Shown here: positions 29,591 to 64,000 of the stretch, piece by piece
How the letters are laid out: the number at the start of each line of letters is the position of its first letter
Position numbering within the stretch: position 1 is the first letter of the stretch
Source of the DNA: Sacculina carcini
Lineage: Eukaryota; Arthropoda; Thecostraca; Sacculinidae
DNA: 64,000 nt
Assembly (NCBI GenBank): GCA_916048095.2
Contig: OU696587.1
Span: forward strand, 3,913,493-3,977,492
Direction of reading: 5' to 3'
Position numbers and translations under genes: made by a program
The notes under the pieces: model-generated
The model's input: the letters and a program-made list of their open reading frames with translations, nothing else
What the model was told of the DNA's origin: nothing
The model's database searches: none

Positions 29591-30590
29591 CTATATTTTT
29601 CCCTCAATACTGCTGGATGACGAGTTCCCAAACTCCACAAAATTGTTCTCCAAGTAGGTGAATGACATCCATTGCCACATGCGCTTGCTTCGCGGTGTAA
29701 ATGGCACGTCAGTTTCACTGGCACCATCAGCCGTCCCGTCATCGTCTCCTTTGCCCCTCACTGCGCAGACGATCTCAGCATCACTCAGCTCGCCGTAGCA
29801 CTCCACTTCTACATCCAATGCTACCAACTCTTCAAACTCCGCCGTTTGCGCGAAGTCCGGCTCATCGGCATCATCGTCGTCACCGCAACTGGAAAAGTAC
29901 GACAGGAGAGTTCTGTCCACTATTCTGGGGCACCGAGGATTTTGGTGCTTGCCAACGACATATGAATGTTTTTCGCTTACATTGCTGTTTGCTAGCATAA
30001 GCACCGTCAACCGGTCCTTGGACACTTTTCCCTGCGTCGGCTTGCTGTCGCTTACTGCAAGAGTGCCTGATGGCGTCGCTCTATAGAACAGTGCCGTCTC
30101 GTCTGCATTAAAAATGTCCCTGGACACATAGTCGTCCAGTTCCTTGGGCAGCACGTTTGTCATCCATTCCTTTGCCCCCACCATATCAGCCGCCGCTTTC
30201 TCCCCTTGCGCCTTCACGAATCTGACGGTTTCCCGTTGCTCCAGCCGGTCGAGTCAGCCAATTGACGGTTCAAATGACACATCCGTCTCAACCACCAACT
30301 TCTTGGCATTTTCCATCATAAGATTTCCATTCACGGGTAGATTCTTGGCGCACATCTGGTGGAACCACATGAGCACCGCCTCATCCACCTCTGCAAGATT
30401 GTTCGATCTCTTGCGCTTCCGACTCAGATTGCTGCTGGTCACCGCAATGTCTCGAATTTTTTCGTTCGTTTTCTTTCTGCCTGATTTTTGAAATTATCCC
30501 CTTTGCAATGGTCGTTTGTTCCTTGCCAGCCTTGAGTTGGTCCAAGGTTTGCAACTTATCCTGCAGCGTGAACTCAGTACGCTTTCCCAT
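29591..30590 (-). pseudogene. Pogo/Tigger transposase, frameshifted and internally deleted
   Basis: The protein starts MGKRTEFTLQDK at 30590, a typical CENP-B/pogo N-terminal helix-turn-helix. A frameshift around 30470-30490 leads into a second CENP-B-type DNA-binding region (RKRKRSNNLAEVDEAVLMWF). The TGA at 30256-30254 falls where a Trp is usual, before LDRLEQRE. The catalytic domain begins well (IFNADETALFYR, first Asp) and continues through GKHQNPRCPRI, but the middle with the second Asp and its neighbours is absent. The frame jumps to an acidic C-terminal tail ending EGKI. It is therefore an inactive, internally deleted copy. The probable 5' end of the element is at 30780. Confidence 0.85.
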
Positions 30591-35564: not shown

Positions 35565-38500
35565 CAGACACAGACAGACGCACACATATACATCTGCTCA
35601 TATTGATATTCTAAATTTATCATCCTTCAATTTTCTCATGCAAACGCTGCATATATATTCATGTATGCGTGTGTGTATGTGTGTGTGTGTGTGTGTGTGT
35701 CTGTATGTTGGGCGGGGTTCAGTGGGTGGACGAGGCTACCACCAAACACGCGCCACCACAGCCGCCACCACGCACGCCACCACGGACGCGGCCAGTTTTG
35801 TGCAGTACCAGCACTTGAGCGGCTATGGTGGCACGTCTGGTGGCGGCGGTCAATGCTCGCCTTCGTACGCGGCCGCCAATTACGGCTACACCACGGCCGA
35901 TCATGTCTCACCGCCTGGCGCCACGACACACGCCACTGTTTTCAGCAGTGGTCACGAGGTGGCGCCACAAGCGATTTTTTATCTATAATTTGTCGCCGTC
36001 ACTCACTTGATACATCGCAATCTGTCACAGGCCGGGGACTGTTCAGTTACAGACAACAATGACAACACGTTTTGCAGAAAGTTGTCAACACAACAATGGG
36101 CCGAAAATGACAAATTTTAATTTCAATTTGAGTCAACGTTCGGTTGATCACGCAAGTGAAACAATGTAGTTTCAATTCGACATGTCCTTATATGTAAAAT
36201 CGCAGATTTAAGCGTATACAATGTTGTTAATCTCTATATAGAGAACAATAACGTTACTTCAGTATTACTGTACAATTTCACAGTTTCAAATAGTGCCAAT
36301 CTCCCCACTTTTGACTGTTTGATGGCCGATGGTGTTTTACATACGTTTGTGTGCGGGTGTGTCAGAGTCGTGTGGCCGAGATGGGCGCTGGTGTTGACTA
36401 TGCCGCTTTCTCATATCCGTCGACTCAGTCATTCTACCACGGCTCAACTGCAACGCCGGCCACTGAGACAATTGCCGCCGGATTGACGGACGCGTCGAAT
36501 GCGGCGTTCTGCGGCGCCGGCGGCGCTCAGTCGTCCGTCTGCTACGGCCAGGAGGCGGTGGTTGGCTCGCCGCTTGCCGGAGCAGAGGCGGCGGCAGCAG
36601 CGGCGGCGGTCGTCGTTGAGCAGGACACTAAGAGGCTGGACCAACACGCCTGCCACGTGTCGCCTCTGCCACTCGGTGCAGAGCCGGTTTCAGGTGGGCC
36701 AGGACACGGGGTGCTACTCATTATCAACCTGGTATTAGATAAAAATCAAAGCAAAAATTGACACTAAACATTTTTACTGTGGGACAGCTAAGCAGAGCCG
36801 TAGCAACCGCCCCCCGTACCCCCCGGCCGGGGGGCCCCGAATGTTGAGGGGCCCTTTTGCTTCACGTATTATGTGATTATGTCTAATAAATACATTCATT
36901 ATTTGGTGATTTATTTATAATGGGGGCCCCAAGTGTTGTCTTCGGGGGGGGGGCATAATTCCCCGCAACGGCTCTGCAGCTAAGTGCCAGCAATCTTGTC
37001 TCAATCTCTCAATAAACCAACACGACGGGAAAGCAACGTATTTATTGATATAATTAAAGAAGTATGAGACATTGTTGATGAGTATTTGTGTGTCGTGTTA
37101 TGTTGGGCAGACGCGCTGGCAAGTGCCGACTTTCATTCTCCCTCTTCACTCAATTCGCCATCATCGGCGGTCACTTCAGGCACTCGTCGAAGACGTAACA
37201 GCAACTCAGGTCGGTTACGTCGCACACCAGCCACTTTCAGTCGCGTTTTCGTCCTTTTAATGACTTCTCTTTATTTTTCATTGAAACAGCAGCGCAAAAA
37301 CCGCATACTGTAAGCTTCACTTTGGTGTTTTCACACATGTGTGTGTATGTGTGTGTGTGTGTGTACGTTTGTCTGTGTGTACGTGCAGTATCCTCTTCAA
37401 GGCGCCGTCGCAGGGCGGATCCGTCGCCGAGCGGCGAACTCGCCACCAAAATCGACCGCATCTTCTTGTGGGACCTGGATGAAACTGTCATCGTCTTCCA
37501 TTCACTGCTCACCGGCCAATATGCGCGAGAAAATGACCGGGTAACGTGCAGACGCATTGCAAACATGCGCTGATTGATATTATGCCCGCGTTTCATTGAT
37601 CATTTGGTAAAAACATGAGGCTTTGTTTTGTTTTTCTGCTGGTAACGTCCAAGGGCTTGTTGTAACGCGTGCTCTATTTCTGCTTGCTCCTATGTTAGTG
37701 TGGTAGTTGTTCATTCTTTGGCTCAATTTCTCTACAATGCAAGATGAATGCAACAGGTGTCCCTCTAACAGATGAAGCTGAATTATTTTTGGTCCGGGGC
37801 TGCGCTGAAAATTTACCTCTGTCTATTCTAACTCGAATCGATTTCGCACGAAACAAATCACGTGCGAAATTGTCTGTACACTTGATATCTCTTTTGGGTA
37901 GCAATAATTCAATAACCATTTCACCATCATGCGCCTGTAAGCTATCATTATTAGGGTGACCTTTTTGCTCCAAATGCAGTCTTTTATCGTGAACTTTATC
38001 CATCCTGAGAAACTCAACAATCTATCCATTTTATTGATTTGAGGTAACTATTGAAGAAGTTATATATGCAATTCTTTGTTTTTGCTTAACCGTTTCATTT
38101 TGAGAGCAACTGTTTTGGGTTTAGGACAAATTTTTAACCTTCAGAACAATTGCTCTATATTATCAGGAAAAATTAGATTTAAAATTTGTACAATGTGGTG
38201 TATGTTAATGTCAACACGAACTCGATACAAATATATCTGGAAGGCGTGTGAACATTGTGTCCGTGTGTGGTGCTAGACATCCTGCGTGTGCACGCGCCCA
38301 TAGACATCATATAGACGTATATGTAGACATGTAGATGATATAATATAGACATAACACTCTGACTGATATTGCAAACATAGCCCTTTGTTAGATCAACATC
38401 ACTTGTCTATGATTGCCGCATAATCAGATGATGTTCTGGTCTGCAAACTTCCTTTAGACTTTAGAGCATTTGAGGAAATTAACACTTAATGAGTCTGCCA

Positions 38501-41500
38501 AATTATATTGTAGACTTAAATGTCACCGGCGGATCCAGAGAGGGGAGGGGACTCAGGGGGCTGAAAACCCCCAAAATGTTTCTATCAACTCCTCATAACC
38601 AAGAGGTTCACTAAATGAGGTCAATAAATTTTATTTCTGTAGAATTTGTTGATATAAGCATTATCGCAAAGACGTTGCATAATGATGCATGTACATGCCT
38701 GATCGCCCCCAAATTGCAGTCTGGATCCGCTCCTGTTGAATGTCACTGCCAGGCATCAGTGCAACATGCTAGACAAACTAGACAAGCATGTGAAACACAC
38801 AATATTAGCACAACCGCAAATGCTCAAATACAAACGAAAACGTGAAGCCCACAAAGTGTTAAGGGGTGATTTCAGTGTTGTTTTTTTATCACTCTTTGAA
38901 TTTATATTGGTGATATTATAGCGAAATATTGGGTTCAACTTTTTAGCGCGACCTTTTACGGTTTTTGGCGTACTAAAATGTCACCCTTGTCACCAGTGAG
39001 GTGACAGTTTATGAAACATTCAATCCTACCACAACTGCGAATTCTCAAAACGTATTATAGAAAATAGAAATAGTTAAAAATAGTTATTTAATGTAAAATG
39101 TTGAAATTTTGTCACAACAAGTATTTTTTCATAAATATGTGATTTTCAATACCATTTTCACGAGTTTTAGAGAAATTACTTCAAAAGTTTAGCGTAACTT
39201 TCTTGATTGTTAACGCACCAAAGGATCCCTAAACATTACTGTTGTTATCCATCTTTTTTAGCATTCGCGCCTGTATAACATTTGAGCGCCTGTATCAAAT
39301 ACATGGGTGCCCACACCCCCGACAAATGGTTGGAGGGCGCATGCAATTGACCAACTGAGTCAACTTTGAACACTAATGCATGATGGCTGTCATCCCCCCG
39401 AGCATCGACACAAATCTACGCCCTTGATCAAATATATTTTATTGTACGTGTTGTATTAAATATATTTAATATATTTTATTGTACGTATGAGTTACACACT
39501 CGTAATCCTGCCTTGTCGTAAAGTTCCTTGAACATATGCATTCATTTCTGATTGATAATTATATCTGGTAATTCTGTTCCACTGGTTGATGCATCTATCA
39601 GCGGAATATATATTTTTGGCTGTTTTTTTAGTTCATCTTATTATAAGCCGCTTGTTATTGAACCTTTTGCACGTTGCAAATTTGAATATATTTGAATTTT
39701 ATGTGTGTGTGTGTGCGTGTGTGTGTGTTTTCATCTACAGTGTGGTGTGTCTTCGTGGCTTGAACAAAAACTGAATTTGTGGGCATTTGTGCGTGTGTGT
39801 GTGTATGCATTGAGGTATGTATGTGTATGTTTGAGTGTTTACATGTGAGTACATGTGTTTGTATGTATGTATGTGTGTCTGTCTGTTTCAGAATCCGATG
39901 TTGTGCGCGCAGATCGGAGCCAGTCTAGAGACGCTGGTATTTGCACTGGGAGAAGACTTGTTCTTCCTCAAAGAACTGGACGTTGAGGTATGATCCAGGG
40001 TTGAACAGAGGCTATAGTACTGAGGGACATGGAAAAATTATCAACAGGGGCGTGGTTAAATGCTCAAATCGCTCGGAAGTCTTGATTCATCGGCTGGGTT
40101 TTGTTTTGACCAGGTTCAATATTGGCGTACGTTTTAGTTTCATATTACACTAATCTTCAAAGCTTCAGACATTCTTAGATTGCATTGGTGACGCCAACGT
40201 GTGGAGTCTAGGCCAAATTCCCTATAATAATGTTTCCAGCTCCATGAAAACACCGCCTGTACAGCCGCTATTCCGTGTAGCATTCAGCTTATATGTGTGC
40301 ATATGTTCATGTCTGTGTATGTGCGAACTTGTGCCTCTGTGTATGTGTATGTATGTGTGGGTGTTCACAGAGCCAGTACCCTACACACGTGACCAATATC
40401 GACGATTTGAACACCGAGGACAACAATCAGGACCTCAGGTATGCATATGTGTGTGTGTGTGTACGTCTTGACAATTTTATTAAAATAGATTGTGCAGATT
40501 TGTAAATATTTAGTGTAAAATTTCAATTATATCTTAGAGAACTATCATATCAGTATTTTTTACTCTCCTCGAAAGGATGGGATATTTGGCAGCCATATAA
40601 TCCTTCACTTTTGTCCCCACAATAATTACCTACCATTTGGTAAGTTTTTTGTTTTTGGAAATATCGAAATAATGTTGGAATTATTTGTTTCGGAAAATGC
40701 ATAGCTTTTTTGTTTATCGCCGAATTTTTTTTCTAAAGTTCTTGTTGTTTCTGCTGTGTCGGTCGAGCAGCAGCTACAATTTCCCTGCCGACGGGCTGGC
40801 GGCCACGCTCGGGGTGCACACCGCCTCAGGCAACGTCTATTCCAGTCTTGCACGCACCAACGTCAGCTCAGACATCGCGCGCAAAATTGCCTTTCGTCAT
40901 CGCCGCGTCAAAGAACTGTACACCATGTACCGACACAACGTGTCAGGTCGGTCCTCGGCAAACTCTGGACATTTTGATTTAAAACATTTGTGTTTTGATC
41001 AACGGCGTAGATTTGTGTCTAAAGTTGGTTCAGTTGGCCAATTGCTTGAGAGGCTAAATCATTTTCGGCCTGTTCAATAACAACTCATATACCTCAATGC
41101 GAAGTATCTTGCACTTAATGGCATGCACACGCACACACATACACACACACACAGACTTGTCGCGTATTGTAACTTTTTTGCTATGATGATTCTGATGACA
41201 ATATGCCCAATGAGCTGAACTCAGTAGAATTCTCGGGGGGATATATATTTGCATATTCATCTCCCAGCCAATTGGTCGGAGGGGTGGCATATTACCCCCC
41301 CCCCCACCCAAAAAAAACCCAGAATCCACGATTTTTCCACGAAATCCACGAAGTCCATGATTTTTCATTTAATAAATTTGCATTTTGATTTAATCCAAGT
41401 GGATTGATTTAATACACAGATCACCAGATTAGATCAGATATCTTGATTTGCACTCCGAAACGCGTGAAATAGCAACGCATTATCATTTCTCGTTCCTGAT

Positions 41501-42075
41501 TGCCCTTTTGTTCGAGTTAAGAGCGTGCACTATGAGAAAATGTACCTGTACATCGCACCGTTCTTCCATTACCTTTCTGACTTGTCTAGGAAAAAGTAGG
41601 CTGTTTTAGAAAGTTTCCCGCTGATGAAGGCATTGCATGTCAGTTTGTCTTTTCTGATTGATGCCGAAGCCAGCTAGATATGATAGCGCTGTTTTGAGCT
41701 ACACATGCACACACACATACACACGGACACACACACATACAGACAGGTATCTTATATCTATTTGCTTCTGTGTATGACTTGGTATGTTTTCATCTTATGC
41801 CGCCAGTGTATTTCTAGCGTTGATTTAATTGTCGTTTCCAAACGAGAGGTGCGTTTAGTTTGAGGTGTGATGAAGTGTAATTCAACTTTGACACGCACAC
41901 ACACACACACACGCACACATACACGTGCAGAGTTATTCCGCAGTCACATGCACGGCAGACATCCGACATTCGAGCAGAACTGGGCCAATGTGCGACACGA
42001 ACTCGAGTCTGTCACCAACAACTGGCTCAGCAAAGCAACCACGTGTCTCAAACTCATCCAGGAGAGGTGAACACC

Positions 42076-42119
<44 letters not shown>

Positions 42120-45100
42120 AGTACACACACACACACACACACACACATACATACACGCACATACACGCACATACACACACACACACACACACGGTTTAAT
42201 GTTGCGTATTTTTGTGATTTTTTATAAATCAATAATATTTTTTATCGCACAAATGTAATATAAAGTAACGCAGGAAGAGCACAAGCCTCTACACACTTTG
42301 CATGTAGAAAATATGAGAACTTGCAAGAGAGATAATGAGATAGATAGAGAGCTGAAGTATGGTATATATGAGGACAAATCATGATATCACACATATTCAG
42401 ACACCAACCAATAGAAATAATGCTAAATGATAAATAAACAAACAAGCAGTTATTGAATACGATTTTGCAGAATAAATAATATTAAATTAGTAGAAAGTAT
42501 ACTTGTGTTTGGCACCGTTGTTTGCGATTTGCTGTTTACAGCACTTGACTGAATCAGAGAATGATTGACTGAACTGAATTGTTTCAACTAGAGGCCTGAA
42601 TTTCACTGTCTTGTATTGTTCTAGCATTCCATTTGTCTAGCTGGCCAATTACAGTGTAATACTTCAATTCTCTAATAAGCATTTCAAGATGACACGTGAT
42701 ATACAGAATATATTTCTTCTTTGTTGCTATATACTGTCAGTTGTAATGTATGTGAAGTTCGTGTATATATATATGTGTGTGTGTGTATGTGTGTGTGTGT
42801 ATGTGTGTGTGTGTGTAGGAAGCAATGTGCGAGTATGTTGATCACTCGCAACATGTTGATGACAACATTCGCCAAGGCGGTCATTTTCGGTCTTAGCGAG
42901 TGCTTTGAACCGGAGAATATTTTCAGCGCGTACAAAGTCGGTGTGTGACGCACACACACACAAACACATACACACACATACATACACACACATACACACA
43001 CATACATACACACACATACACACGTGGATGAGGTTCATTTAGTCAGTTACCTGTTTATGGTTCATAATATAGTTCATTTTATTTAGTTAAGTGCATCCTT
43101 TATTATGCATGGTGTCGGTTGTAGTAACATTGCAAATATGTCAGTCTGAATCAGGTGAGACGTGATTGACGCACTTTCAAACACAACTGGTCCTACACTT
43201 GCTAGTGATAAGTCGGATATGTGATAACGACAAATCATGTAATATACAGTAGTTAAGTTCTAAATAATAAATACTGATACTAAATATGTATTGGGTTAAT
43301 TAAATAAAAAAAGTGTTTTTATTTTATTCGTAGTTAAATCTTCTTAGTTTTCATTTAATATTTTCATGATGATGTAGCATAAACCCAAACGAAAAAATCA
43401 TGATCAAATAAATGATGCAGTGTACCAGATTGGGGTAATTTTTCACTTTAAAAAATCCAAAACTGTTTATCACAGGTGTCGCCAAAGTCTAAAATAAAAA
43501 TAATTGTCAAATTTAGTATATTTACACTATGGAAAATGGCAAAAACATCGATCGTCATACATTAGAAAAGAAAAATATATTTCACGGTTAAAATTGCTAA
43601 AAATATATTGGTATACTGAATTTGTATTTGTGAAATACAAATTTGTGTTTTTTTCCATGTGTGTGTGTGTGGGGGGGGCTAGGAATTCACCGGGGGGCCC
43701 AGGGGGGCGCCAGACTGCAAAAGTTTGGCAACCACTGGAATAGCCAGTAATTTGCTAGGTCTGGTCATACACTACCACTGCGAGATACCTTGAGATATCA
43801 TTGCGTCTGTTTGTCTATCAGGTTATGAAAGTTGTGTGAACACAATTCGTCAGCGCTACACGGAGCAGCATGGCAGGGAGGTGATATGCATCATTGTGGG
43901 TAACGCCGACCACCATACTGCCTCGGGCGGTCTGGTGCCTGTCGCGCGACAGGTACTGTTATTATGACGTCATAAATATATTGTGCTTAATACTATGTAT
44001 TCTTATTGTGGTTCTGCGTCAATATATCGGTTTGTTATTGTTATCTGTGGTCACACGAGGCTAATTGTTGGCCAAGCCCACAATTGTACGGTAAAATTGT
44101 CGTCCTGAAAAACAAATTTGAATATGCTGAAGCTTTCAAGCCAAAAGGTGTGCATTTCAGCTGCTTGCCGCTAGAGGGCGCTACGTTGCCGTGCAATCTT
44201 GAAATATAATTTGAAGCGATTGAATCTTGAAATGATTGAATTCTCGCGCAAGGCAATATTTCCATCCTGAGTTTTTTTACCACATGGCGCTGAAGCAACG
44301 CGTGCAGTGAATTAATTGTTTTCCTTTTATTGTGACAATTTTATTCTTATGAGATTTGTATAATTTATTTCAATATTTTATACGTTACTATCTATTTATG
44401 GAAAAAATATTTTGTGCATTTAAAATGTAAAATTAAACGCGCAATGAAGTCCTCCAGGTAGAATTGTTCAACGGTGATGTCTCTGAGTTGAATAACAGTC
44501 CATAAATAGTTTATAATTTGATAAATAGTTTTTAATTTGATAAATACTTTATAATTTGATAAATAGTTTATAATTTGATAAATACTTTATAATTTGATAA
44601 ATAGTTTATAATTTTATAAATTGTATATAATTTGATAAATAGTTTAGAATTTGATGAATAGTTTAAAATTTGATAAATAGTTTAAAATTTGATCAACAGT
44701 TTAAATTTGATAGTAAATAATTATTTAAAAAATTAAAAATTTGTTTTATAAATTTATTTTAAAAATTATTAAAAAATTGATGAATCGATAAATAGGTAAA
44801 CAGATATGAAAGGTGCAGAATATGTTCGACATTGATCTGTATATACAAGAATCTACCTGAATTAAATATATAAGAATGCAAATGGTATAGTCAGGAGAGC
44901 GAAATATACCACACCCACGTACTCTGCACCACATCTATTGGCTTGGCTAACAATTGTCCGCTGAAAGCCAATAATTGGCTAGGTCAATAATTGGCCTGGC
45001 CAATTATTGGCTCTGTGTGATTGTGTGACCGCAACTTTAGTTACTAATTTCAATTAACTGTACCGATTATTCGTGTATATTATTAATAGAGTTGGGAATT

Positions 45101-45632
45101 TCATGTGATCACAATTTTATAAGATATTTATTTTCACATAAATTATCATGTAGAGGAAAAACATAGAATGATATTTTAACTAAATAATACTGTACAAATA
45201 TATAATTGTATATGTTGTGCTTGGAATTAATATATTCTGTTAATAATTGTAATTACACAGATCACGCATTCAACATGTTATCATACATTCGAACACTGTA
45301 TATTGGTACAATATTAAATCCTGTATTGAACTCATTTAAAATTCAAATAAATAATATTTAAATACACAAAATGAAATAATATATAATATTCCATATATTT
45401 AATGCTTTATTATACTTAATACGCTCAGTTGTATTCATCTACTGGTGGTAAAAACAAAACTAACTGGAACTAAACTAAAACTGGAAATAGCATGCGTGCG
45501 TGTGCGTGCGTGTGTATGTCTGCGTGTGTGTATGTCTGCGTGTGCGTGCGTGTGTGTATGTATGTGTGTGTGTCGGTTGAGTAGGCAGTGTGGTTTGTGC
45601 TGTCGTGTGCATCTTTGTCACCCGTAATCACT

Positions 45633-45707
<75 letters not shown>

Positions 45708-46228
45708 TTAAACATTCGCTTCACTGTTATTGCAAGCCAGTGTGTACTTGTGTGTGTGTTTGTTTGTGTGTGTATGTCTGTGTGTGTGTGTGCAACAATA
45801 ACCACGTTGTTGTGTTTCACAATGGCACAGTGATTATGAGCCCTGGTATGTTTGTGTGTGTTTGTGTGTGTGTTTGTGTGTTTGTGTGCACATGTGGCGG
45901 ACCATTTGCTTGATTTTAGTAAGCTAAATGCATGAATATGCAATGTAATTTGATCAAACACTATTTATTACTGTAATTTCATATTTTATCAATTGTTATT
46001 GTTACTGAAACGGGACTCATTCTATATGATAGCATATCGTGATTGATTGTTAACAGCATGTATATACTTGAGACGCTATGAGATTGCGTCACACAATCGG
46101 CCATATAATGAGTGTGTTATGGTTGTGTTGTATTTGTTTGTTGACAGTTCGGTATGCCGTATTTTCCCATCAATTCCGACAAGGATTTACACGCCCTGCA
46201 ATTTTTTCTACAGTACGGCTACATGTGA
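33076..46228 (+). CDS. eya: Eyes absent homologue (EYA), 14 joined exons
   Basis: EYA proteins are Six/Sine oculis co-activators with a HAD-fold phosphatase domain, acting in nucleus and cytoplasm in eye and organ development. Exons: 33076 or 33144-33406, 34667-34931, 35277-35365, 35723-35958, 36366-36693, 37111-37209, 37389-37540, 39892-39987, 40371-40438, 40771-40946, 41931-42066, 42819-42940, 43822-43952 and 46148-46228. All junctions are GT-AG and phases agree, giving 769 residues from ATG 33076. Residues 1-469 are Tyr/Ser/Thr/Pro-rich, like EYA transactivation regions. Residues 470-769 are the EYA domain: [19 protein letters not shown] with catalytic D478 and D480, [34 protein letters not shown] and a terminal GMPYFPI...YM. 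The motif usually GDG reads G726-N727-A-D, so a metal-binding Asp is replaced. The start is uncertain: ATG 33076 is in frame, but an AG acceptor at 33142-33143 would make this an internal exon of a gene starting further left. Confidence 0.93.
34049..34266 (+). mobile_element. hAT-like MITE family 1, copy 3, in EYA intron 1
   Basis: CAGTGGCGGCGCCAG at the left and CTTGGCGCGGCCACTG at the right form terminal inverted repeats like those of the copy at 14807. The G-rich left part and GGGGACTCGGCATATTTTTG block are shared. The interior is shorter and diverged. No clear 8-bp duplication remains. Confidence 0.8.
35520..35561. repeat. (CAGA)n tetranucleotide microsatellite in EYA intron 3
   Basis: About ten perfect CAGA units, with further imperfect CAGA/CACA units on both sides (35380-35580). 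It lies between EYA exons 3 and 4. Confidence 0.9.
36793..36976 (+). mobile_element. hAT-like MITE with perfect 8-bp target duplication, EYA intron 5
   Basis: The termini are CAGAGCCGTAGCAACC at the left and the complement of CAGAGCCGTTGCGG at the right. The perfect octamer CAGCTAAG flanks it on both sides (36785-36792 and 36977-36984). At 184 bp it has no coding capacity; the arms are G/C-run rich and the centre is AT-rich. The CAG-start termini plus the 8-bp duplication are diagnostic of hAT. It belongs to a different family from the CAGTGGCGG elements. The intact duplication implies a recent insertion. Confidence 0.92.
38093..38330 (+). repeat. Dispersed repeat, unclassified, copy B, in EYA intron 7
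   Basis: This is the inverted partner of 31185-31410. Similarity runs from the TTTTGGGTTTAGGAC side to the CGCGCCCATAGACATCATATAG side. Confidence 0.75.
38524..38735 (+). mobile_element. hAT-like MITE family 2, copy 2, in EYA intron 7
   Basis: CACCGGCGGATCCAGAG at the left and CTGGATCCGCTCCTG at the right are terminal inverted repeats. The flanking octamers TTAAATGT (38516-38523) and TTGAATGT (38736-38743) match at seven of eight positions. The interior matches the copy at 24766, for example GTTGATATAAGCATTATCGC. Confidence 0.88.
39293..39423 (-). mobile_element. MITE family 3, internally deleted copy, in EYA intron 7
   Basis: On the minus strand it begins GGCGTAGATTTGTGTCGATG and matches the first 90 bp of the element at 54244, then jumps to the TTTGTCGGGGG portion near the other end. 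The internal deletion is typical of non-autonomous copies. Confidence 0.75.
41003..41330 (+). mobile_element. MITE family 3, copy 2, in EYA intron 10
   Basis: It starts GGCGTAGATTTGTGTC and shares TTCAGTTGGCCAATTGC, ATACCTCAATG, CCAATGAGCTGAACTCAG and GAATTCTCGGGGGG with the copy at 54244. A CA microsatellite (41128-41153) has grown inside it. The right end is a C-run with degenerate terminal repeat. Confidence 0.75.
42078..42190. repeat. (CA)n microsatellite directly after EYA exon 11
   Basis: CA repeats with TACA and GTACA interruptions begin 12 bp after the 5' splice site of exon 11. Another short CA tract (41892-41930) immediately precedes the same exon, so the 136-bp exon is bracketed by CA-rich intron ends. 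Confidence 0.9.
42951..43024. repeat. (CACATA)n microsatellite directly after EYA exon 12
   Basis: CA/TA repeats start 11 bp after the exon 12 donor. A TG/TATG tract (42768-42816) ends at the exon 12 acceptor, so complementary TG and CA arms flank the exon. Confidence 0.9.
44505..44715. repeat. 19-bp AT-rich tandem array in the last EYA intron
   Basis: About eleven copies of TTTATAATTTGATAAATAG, with single-base variants (for example TTTTTAATTTG and ATAAATAC). Copies drift towards the right end, as in an ageing minisatellite. Confidence 0.9.
45634..45706. repeat. Pure (CA)n in the last EYA intron
   Basis: About 36 uninterrupted CA units. TG-rich tracts at 45493-45573, 45745-45792 and 45847-45890 surround it on the same strand, so long TG:CA complementary pairs exist in the pre-mRNA. 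Confidence 0.93.
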
Positions 46229-46284
46229 CGCGCTCGTGTAAAAAATATAAGAGTTTGAGTGTGTTATTTGTGTCCCAGTTTGGG

Positions 46285-47284
<1,000 letters not shown>

Positions 47285-47305: not shown

Positions 47306-49840
<2,535 letters not shown>

Positions 49841-50153
49841 TACAGTTTGGAAGTTTACAGTTTGGAAGTTTACAGTTTGGAAGTTTGCAGTTTGGAAGTT
49901 TACAGTTTGGAAGTTTACAGCTTGGAAGTTTACAGTTTGGAAGTTTGCAGTTTGGAAGTTTACAGTTTGGAAGCTTACAGTTTGGAAGTTCACAGTTTGG
50001 AAGCTTGCAGTTTGGAAGTTTACAGTTTGGAAGTTTACAGTTTGGAAGTTTACAGTTTGGAAGTTTACAGCTTGGAAGTTTACAGTTTGGAAGTTTGCAG
50101 TTTGGAAGTTTACAGTTTGGAAGTTTACAGTTTGGAAGCTTGCAGTTTGGATG
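49841..50153. repeat. 15-bp tandem array (about 21 copies)
   Basis: The unit is TACAGTTTGGAAGTT, with T/C changes at a few positions (TGCAG, CTTGG, AAGCT). Since 15 is a multiple of 3, the frames stay in register. On the plus strand the frames give pentapeptides such as QFGSL. On the minus strand an ATG-started frame (50233-49814) gives repeated [T/A][V/A]NFQ. Coding status is unproven. Confidence 0.95.
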
Positions 50154-62208: not shown

Positions 62209-63250
62209 CCATTTGTATTATATCACCTCGCACGACAACACAATGACAGATACTTTGATGTGTGCGTGCGCAGATGCGTAAATCTTATTGCACAATTCTA
62301 ACCTGTGCGGGTCAAGCAGACACACACACATACACACACATACACACACATACACACACACACACACACATACATACACATACACACATACACACACGCA
62401 CACATACACACACACATTCATAGTGCATTCAGATAAGATTGTGTTTTGATGACAAGGGAATATTTCTGTCAATGGCTGGTACACTGGAGATAGCACAAAT
62501 GAAGATGATAGTGTGGTGTTAGTGCGGTGTGCACAATTGCAGTCTCCGAGGTGTTCAAGTGATGGAGTGGTGTGTGTGTTTGTTTGCTTGCTTGGTATGT
62601 TGTTCGTGTCACAGACCATATCTTTCATCTCACAGACCGTTTCATCTCACTGCCGCTCACCAGCAATACTTGGTCTGAGAACAAGCCGAAATTCTTCTTG
62701 ACAAATTGAGACTTTATATTTGTGTGAATGAATATAGTTTATTTTATAATTATAACTGAATTCAAGCACTCAAACGATAAATAAACACAACGCCATGTCA
62801 TGTTATATTTCCTAATCAGGTCTTCGAACTATTCTGATGTCGAATTTTGCACAATGTTTTTTATTTCGTTCACATTCGTCTACTGACACACACACACATA
62901 CACACACACACACACACACACAAATCTTTCTTGTGCTCACTGTGCATATTACAATCACAAAAACCAACTACATCAAGACAGCGTGTGTGTATGTGTGTAT
63001 GCTCCGTACATGCACGAAATGGCCGTCGTATTCACACCCAGAGGCGCAAAGATTTGCACCGTCCAGCGTATACGACAAAGTACTACCTGCTCCGCATAAT
63101 CATAACAATGGTGCATTCTCTGGCTTGCAATCTCTAGATCTTGCAGACTTCATGCTACGCTGATTAGGGTGTGATGGTGTGTCTGTCTGTGTACATGTAT
63201 GCTTGTGTGTGTGTACGATGTCTCGTATGTGTGTGTGTGTGTGGATATTC
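60757..63250. other. No supported gene; CA microsatellites
   Basis: CA tracts at 62169-62206, 62320-62415 (with TACA) and 62887-62922. AG acceptors preceded by TG-rich sequence at about 61000 and 61866 each open a short frame (VYMTAEQVLSVMYAVKHHL; SPNQGRNCFVSRHINM), but I recognise neither and find no donor partner. Confidence 0.4.
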
Positions 63251-63255
63251 TCTCT

Positions 63256-64000
63256 TGTAAGGATGTTGTTATCATTCAACTGGACTTCTCTGCAGCTTTT
63301 GACACTGCTGATCATCTAATTCTACTCAATACTCTATCCAACCTAGGTATTAGGGGTGCTGCACTATCATTCTTCCGCTCTTATCTCTCTACTCGGTCTC
63401 AGTTTGTTTGTACTATTGATTCTCGTAGTGAGTCTTTCCCACTCTCATACGGTGTCCCACAGGGATCCGTTCTAGGCCCTCTCCTTTTGAATATTTACTT
63501 AACCTCCATTGGTGCAATCCTTCATCTTCATGATATCACTTTCCAAATATTTGCGGATGACATTCAAATTCTTCTCTTGTCTGATACTATTTCCCAATCT
63601 TCTGTTTCTTCTCTCTTGGATGACATTGAAACTTGGTTTTTTCCCACCATCTTAAGCTCAATCCTGATAAGACAAACTATATCCTTTTTCAATCATTTAG
63701 AAGCTTAACTTCTCTATCTGTTCATCTCTCTAACTCTGTAGCTTAGGTGTTTCACTTGATGATTCTCTTTCTTTGGATCTATACATCTCTGATATTATTA
63801 GGGTCTGTAACTTTCATATTAGGCGAATTTATTCTATCCGTAGATATTTAACTGTCTCTGCTGCCTTTAAACTAGCTAATTTTTCCATTCTTAGTAGGAT
63901 TCAATATTGTTGCTCGCTTTTTCTTTCTCTTAACCACCGCCAGCTTCGCAAACTTCAATCTGTTATCAATAAAACCTGTCGTCTAATTTACAATCTCCCT
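63256..64000 (+). pseudogene. LINE (non-LTR) reverse transcriptase, 5' truncated, frameshifted, runs off window
   Basis: The homology starts abruptly beside a TG tract, at palm motif A (QLDFSAAFDTADH). It continues through GVPQGSVLGPLL and the catalytic FADD box (FQIFADDIQ; most LINEs have YADD or FADD). Near 63640 a one-base shift in a T-run moves the frame to KLNPDKTNYILF, and near 63740 another change leads to LGVSLDD and then a thumb-like region up to the window edge. Upstream fingers and endonuclease are missing, consistent with 5' truncation on insertion. The 51421-51710 fragment could come from a related family, but they do not overlap. Reverse transcription of its own RNA was the ancestral function; this copy is dead. 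Confidence 0.88.

Follow-up and report, generated by a model that had tools for sequence, protein, structure and literature searches.

A divergent EYA homologue of Sacculina carcini with an altered motif IV and a possibly weakened phosphatase site

The window, by which we mean the whole stretch of 64,000 nucleotides that was analyzed, contains an EYA gene whose EYA domain is encoded by eight exons on the + strand between positions 37389 and 46228. Joined across GT-AG introns, these exons provide 318 open, in-frame codons.

37389..37540, + strand, EYA-domain exon with the HAD motif I WDLDET (nucleophile Asp codon at 37472), from tblastn of EYA2/EYA3
39892..39987, + strand, EYA-domain exon, from the spliced gene model
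40371..40438, + strand, EYA-domain exon, from the spliced gene model
40774..40946, + strand, EYA-domain exon, from the spliced gene model and tblastn of EYA2/EYA3
41931..42066, + strand, EYA-domain exon, from the spliced gene model and tblastn of EYA2/EYA3
42819..42940, + strand, EYA-domain exon with motif II LITRN (Thr codon at 42844), Phe in the column of EYA3 Y508, and a Lys codon at 42934 common to EYA2 and EYA3
43822..43952, + strand, EYA-domain exon with the altered motif IV GNADHH (43899-43916), Cys in the column of EYA3 Y532, and the insertions TEQH and GGLVPV
46148..46228, + strand, last coding exon of EYA, with MPYFP and the stop codon (46226-46228)

The exon carrying motif IV is bordered by the acceptor tatcag/GTTATG and the donor GACAG/gtactg (the slash marks the junction), and the codon of its first Gly is interrupted by the intron. 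An earlier examination of this DNA had read the motif as GNADHH, and we recovered the same residues codon by codon: G at 43899 (GGT), N at 43902 (AAC), A at 43905, D at 43908, and H at both 43911 and 43914. Upstream of the domain, an open stretch near 36366-36693 looks rich in Tyr, Ser, and Thr by eye. Some 60 bases past the EYA stop codon, an almost uninterrupted (TG)n array of roughly 1 kb begins (46287-47283), one of many (AC)n/(TG)n arrays in the window. A tandem repeat at 49840-50150 with a unit of about 15 bases (TTTACAGTTTGGAAG) is open in several frames. Judging by their translations, other open frames look like a Ty3/gypsy-type integrase (12-1334, + strand), a DDE/Tigger-type transposase (29591-30217, - strand), and a reverse transcriptase (63199-63708, + strand).

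We compared the spliced EYA domain with PDB sequences using phmmer. The best match was EYA2 (E 2.2e-54, query residues 5-317), EYA3 was matched at 5.7e-50, and the sole matches under E 0.001 were four distinct sequences, three from EYA2 and one from EYA3. Identity reached 39% with EYA2 (111/284 aligned residues) and 37% with EYA3 (105/284). The NCBIfam EYA model TIGR01658 scored 157.2 bits (E 6.9e-46), below its curated cut-off of 195.3 bits; since this is an equivalog-domain cut-off, kinship with EYA is firm but equal function is not given. A Pfam search of the protein matched no EYA model and produced two chance-level matches only. Based on these comparisons, we regard the protein as a divergent EYA member, a variant of a known protein rather than a new kind. 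Where EYA2 and EYA3 are identical to each other, the protein kept 90 of 189 columns overall. Exon by exon, the motif I exon retained 19/29, the motif IV exon 9/24, and the exon with the smallest share 5/22. Conservation in the exon that carries motif IV falls short of the overall share, yet another exon is lower.

The genome searched comprised 264 Mb in 43 contigs, with the window on contig C22. Family-model and domain searches found one EYA gene; as they work exon by exon, such counts are lower bounds. The domain search returned nine matches, eight of them to the window gene and one on contig C6. We rejected the latter as a second EYA copy, given that only the last exon and the intron before it (window 45992-46240) have been copied. 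This partial copy (L015 4257-4493; C6:10922256-10922492, minus strand) is 86% identical to the corresponding window sequence, and its exon part has 64 of 69 aligned bases identical, a 12-base in-frame deletion, and a retained stop codon. By tblastn, the 9 kb around it held no other credible EYA exons (next best E, 0.12). Pattern searches for EYA relatives gave 52 matches in viral contigs and 50 in prokaryote contigs, none of which was confirmed. Four SIX-domain matches were found in the genome, among which we read SIX1/2, SIX3/6, and SIX4/5-like genes. Two SIX-domain genes or fragments, L005 and L006, lie about 0.5 Mb apart on contig C2; the weaker of these, L006 (81 bits), is possibly a fourth, divergent SIX gene. 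The SIX1/2 gene on contig C21 keeps the stretch FGFTQEQVACVCEVLQQ, which we take to be the N-terminal EYA-binding helix of SIX1, with 17/17 residues identical to SIX1 in the SIX1-EYA2 crystal (PDB 4egc). SIX1 is described as interacting with EYA mainly through one helix (PMC10361970).

Relative to EYA2 and EYA3 of known structure (PDB 4egc, 3geb, 3hb0, and 9n0y), the EYA domain is nearly full length and shares the ESC, MP, and other invariant columns. It also shares motif I, which reads an intact WDLDET, as the original prediction had it. In contrast, motif IV, GDGxxE in those proteins, is GNADHH here. Both phmmer (against the PDB sequences of EYA2 and EYA3) and MAFFT aligned the G-N of GNADHH onto the G-D of GDG, upholding the claim that the metal-binding motif of this EYA homologue is altered. 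The metal-ligand column (EYA2 D502, EYA3 D537) is occupied by N276, in numbering along the spliced domain, and the +4 column (EYA2 E506, EYA3 E541) by H280. Two tyrosine columns have also changed, from EYA3 Y508 to F243 and from EYA3 Y532 to C271. The replacement of the +4 Glu by His and of these two tyrosines, both required by EYA3, goes beyond what had been noticed before. In the MAFFT alignment, the loop between the Gly of motif IV and the Met of MP has 21 residues compared with 15 in EYA2/EYA3; it is indeed longer, by six residues rather than the approximately five first estimated, and an additional four-residue insertion (TEQH) precedes the strand. The change of MPFWR to MPYFP, likewise reported earlier, lies in the last exon.

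EYA2 numbers given here assume a chain offset of 244, which yields D274 and D502. Motif II has two neighboring Thr candidates: the column of EYA2 T447 is kept as T217, and that of T448, which we take to be the catalytic motif II Thr, is R218. Similarly, among the Lys candidates for motif III, the column of EYA2 K477 is kept as K247, and that of K480, presumably the motif III Lys, is Y250. In human EYA4, T548 is named as a motif II residue, deafness variants include G604 (motif IV), W619, and T548 (motif II), and metal sites are predicted at residues 375, 377, and 603 (PMC7148344). If EYA4 runs 101 residues ahead of EYA2, as the pair D375/D274 suggests, then residue 603 falls in the column of N276, and T548 equals EYA2 T447. 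With the same offset, G604 (the second Gly of GDG) is Ala here, W619 (the Trp of MPFW) is Phe, and the deafness column of T548 is kept as T217.

Studies of other EYA proteins indicate how much these positions can matter. Partly from protein lengths, we identified mouse Eya3 E478 and fly E728 as residues of the +4 Glu column: mouse Eya3 presumably has 510 residues, which makes its E478 equivalent to human E541, and we assume a fly isoform of 760 residues for E728. Equal stretches of 110 residues in human and fly (PMC5811557) fit the placement of E728 if the fly isoform is 6 residues shorter. Mouse Eya3 E478Q, the equivalent of fly E728Q, was reported to have severely decreased activity in vitro (PMC3595212) or no measurable activity in vitro (PMC5673202). 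The EYA3 substitutions Y508F and Y532F are catalytically inactive, and the equivalent tyrosines are not needed by EYA1 (PMC5811557). Acidic residues of motif IV hold Mg2+ in HAD phosphatases, and in EYA the Asp of this motif is a metal ligand (PMC8069645). In flies, Eya carrying both D493N and E728Q still rescues the eye and viability (PMC3595212), so loss of the phosphatase can be tolerated.

Based on the combined changes, we favor, with a probability of roughly 0.55, a protein whose tyrosine-phosphatase activity is weak or absent and whose role as a SIX coactivator is kept. Because the ligand Asp and the +4 Glu are gone and two supporting tyrosines are changed, weak or absent activity is the likeliest outcome. 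Mg2+ would be held poorly or differently at the remodeled motif IV, tyrosine-phosphatase activity would be weakened or lost as a result, and the domain would be retained for binding SIX proteins and acting as a transcriptional coactivator. The retained EYA domain and the unchanged SIX1/2 stretch would fit such a coactivator, lending indirect support to the earlier suggestion that the SIX role persists. The companion suggestion of weak or altered phosphatase activity probably holds for the whole set of changes, which appears to be a stronger argument for loss than the Asn alone. A more far-reaching version would have the sole EYA found serve only as a SIX coactivator, its tyrosine phosphatase lost and motif I preserved for the sake of folding or partner binding; in our estimation, this falls a little short of even odds.

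The change from Asp to Asn was dropped as an argument in its own right because of yeast Pah1, an active HAD enzyme in which motif IV reads G529-N530-xxx-D534 and Asn530 is the predicted metal ligand; the general form given for the motif is G(D/N)XXXD, and it is said to vary more (PMC12357310). We claim no special kinship with Pah1/lipin phosphatases; the likeness is that of an Asn at the predicted metal-ligand position. Asn is thus a natural motif IV residue in a working phosphatase, and, by analogy, the most serious alternative is that the enzyme is still active, with Asn276 binding Mg2+ in the way predicted for Asn530 of Pah1 and with Asp278 or a loop residue replacing the second acid, perhaps for other substrates. 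We rate this at about one chance in three, behind loss of activity. A loss of catalysis would not lead one to expect the perfect conservation of motif I that is seen. D278, which the original prediction numbered 729 and suggested as a compensating residue, is two residues beyond N276 and could help, and the longer loop could supply other ligands. Beside a six-residue insertion, the +4 assignment itself could shift. In addition, the equivalents of Y508 and Y532 are dispensable in EYA1, and the whole domain is divergent, with a motif IV exon that is not the least conserved. The +4 position speaks both ways: Pah1 D534A showed no activity in extract yet mostly restored growth (PMC12357310), so that cells may depend less on the +4 acid, whereas Pah1 has Asp at +4 and this protein has His. 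The loss of both tyrosines that EYA3 needs also weighs against continued activity.

Ordinary divergence of a fast-evolving EYA without a functional switch, in which the site drifted after the phosphatase was already dispensable, seems improbable to us. The keeping of only 90 of the 189 shared columns would suit it, as would the dispensability indicated by the fly rescue (PMC3595212). So would the variation in other lineages: a review describes a less conserved motif IV for choanoflagellate EYA, and of five fungal EYAs it describes one in which the motif is missing or incomplete (PMC8069645). Those proteins resemble the one described here in keeping motif I with an altered motif IV, a comparison that follows the statement of that review rather than residue letters; this genome differs in having several SIX genes. 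Against drift, neither WDLDET nor the SIX1/2 stretch has changed at all, which means that any drift was not uniform.

Splicing was considered as a source of the unusual motif, since the original prediction had named transcripts using an internal GT, together with an unseen mini-exon supplying GDG, as a way in which it could fail. This GT, at 43900, could serve as a donor; its use, however, would require a mini-exon starting with GD. We scanned the intron after 43905 for mini-exons of 2-119 nt that had an AG acceptor and a GT donor and were in phase with both the internal donor (43899) and the last exon, and 0 of 82 phase-compatible open candidates begin with GD. In the three + frames, the introns at 42941-43821 and 43953-46147 contain no GDG, and their only GD is in FNGDVSE at 44473. 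The donor at 43952 scores 6 of 9, equal to three other GT sites in the same exon, and was chosen because ARQ matches AKQ/AKK; it also fits a human EYA4 exon border between codons 612 and 619, if the table in PMC7148344 gives exon numbers. The scored GT sites beyond 43916 leave GNADHH in place. A single-base error at the Asn (N727 in the earlier numbering), the other proposed failure, would restore the Asp alone and leave the +4 His, the changed tyrosines, and the loop length as they are. An artefact from a wrong splicing model, a sequence error, or a decaying gene is therefore highly improbable, the undistinguished donor score at 43952 being outweighed by the outcome of the mini-exon scan, by eight exons that stay open, and by changes that one base cannot explain.

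In the titles and abstract openings of the literature matches listed, we found no animal EYA with this motif IV change. Variation in motif IV is already known from choanoflagellate and fungal EYAs (PMC8069645), and this animal form is a further variant. The role of the EYA phosphatase in development is disputed, having been judged dispensable by genomic rescue in flies (PMC3595212) and to have an effect when flies carrying E728Q are sensitized (PMC5673202); the latter result implies that phosphatase loss may cost something. As the sole EYA found, changed at four positions that matter in studied EYAs, the Sacculina carcini protein would be a natural test of the need for the phosphatase and also of the possible ways of rebuilding HAD motif IV. 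If phosphatase activity has indeed been lost, this protein would parallel, in nature, the phosphatase-dead Eya of flies.
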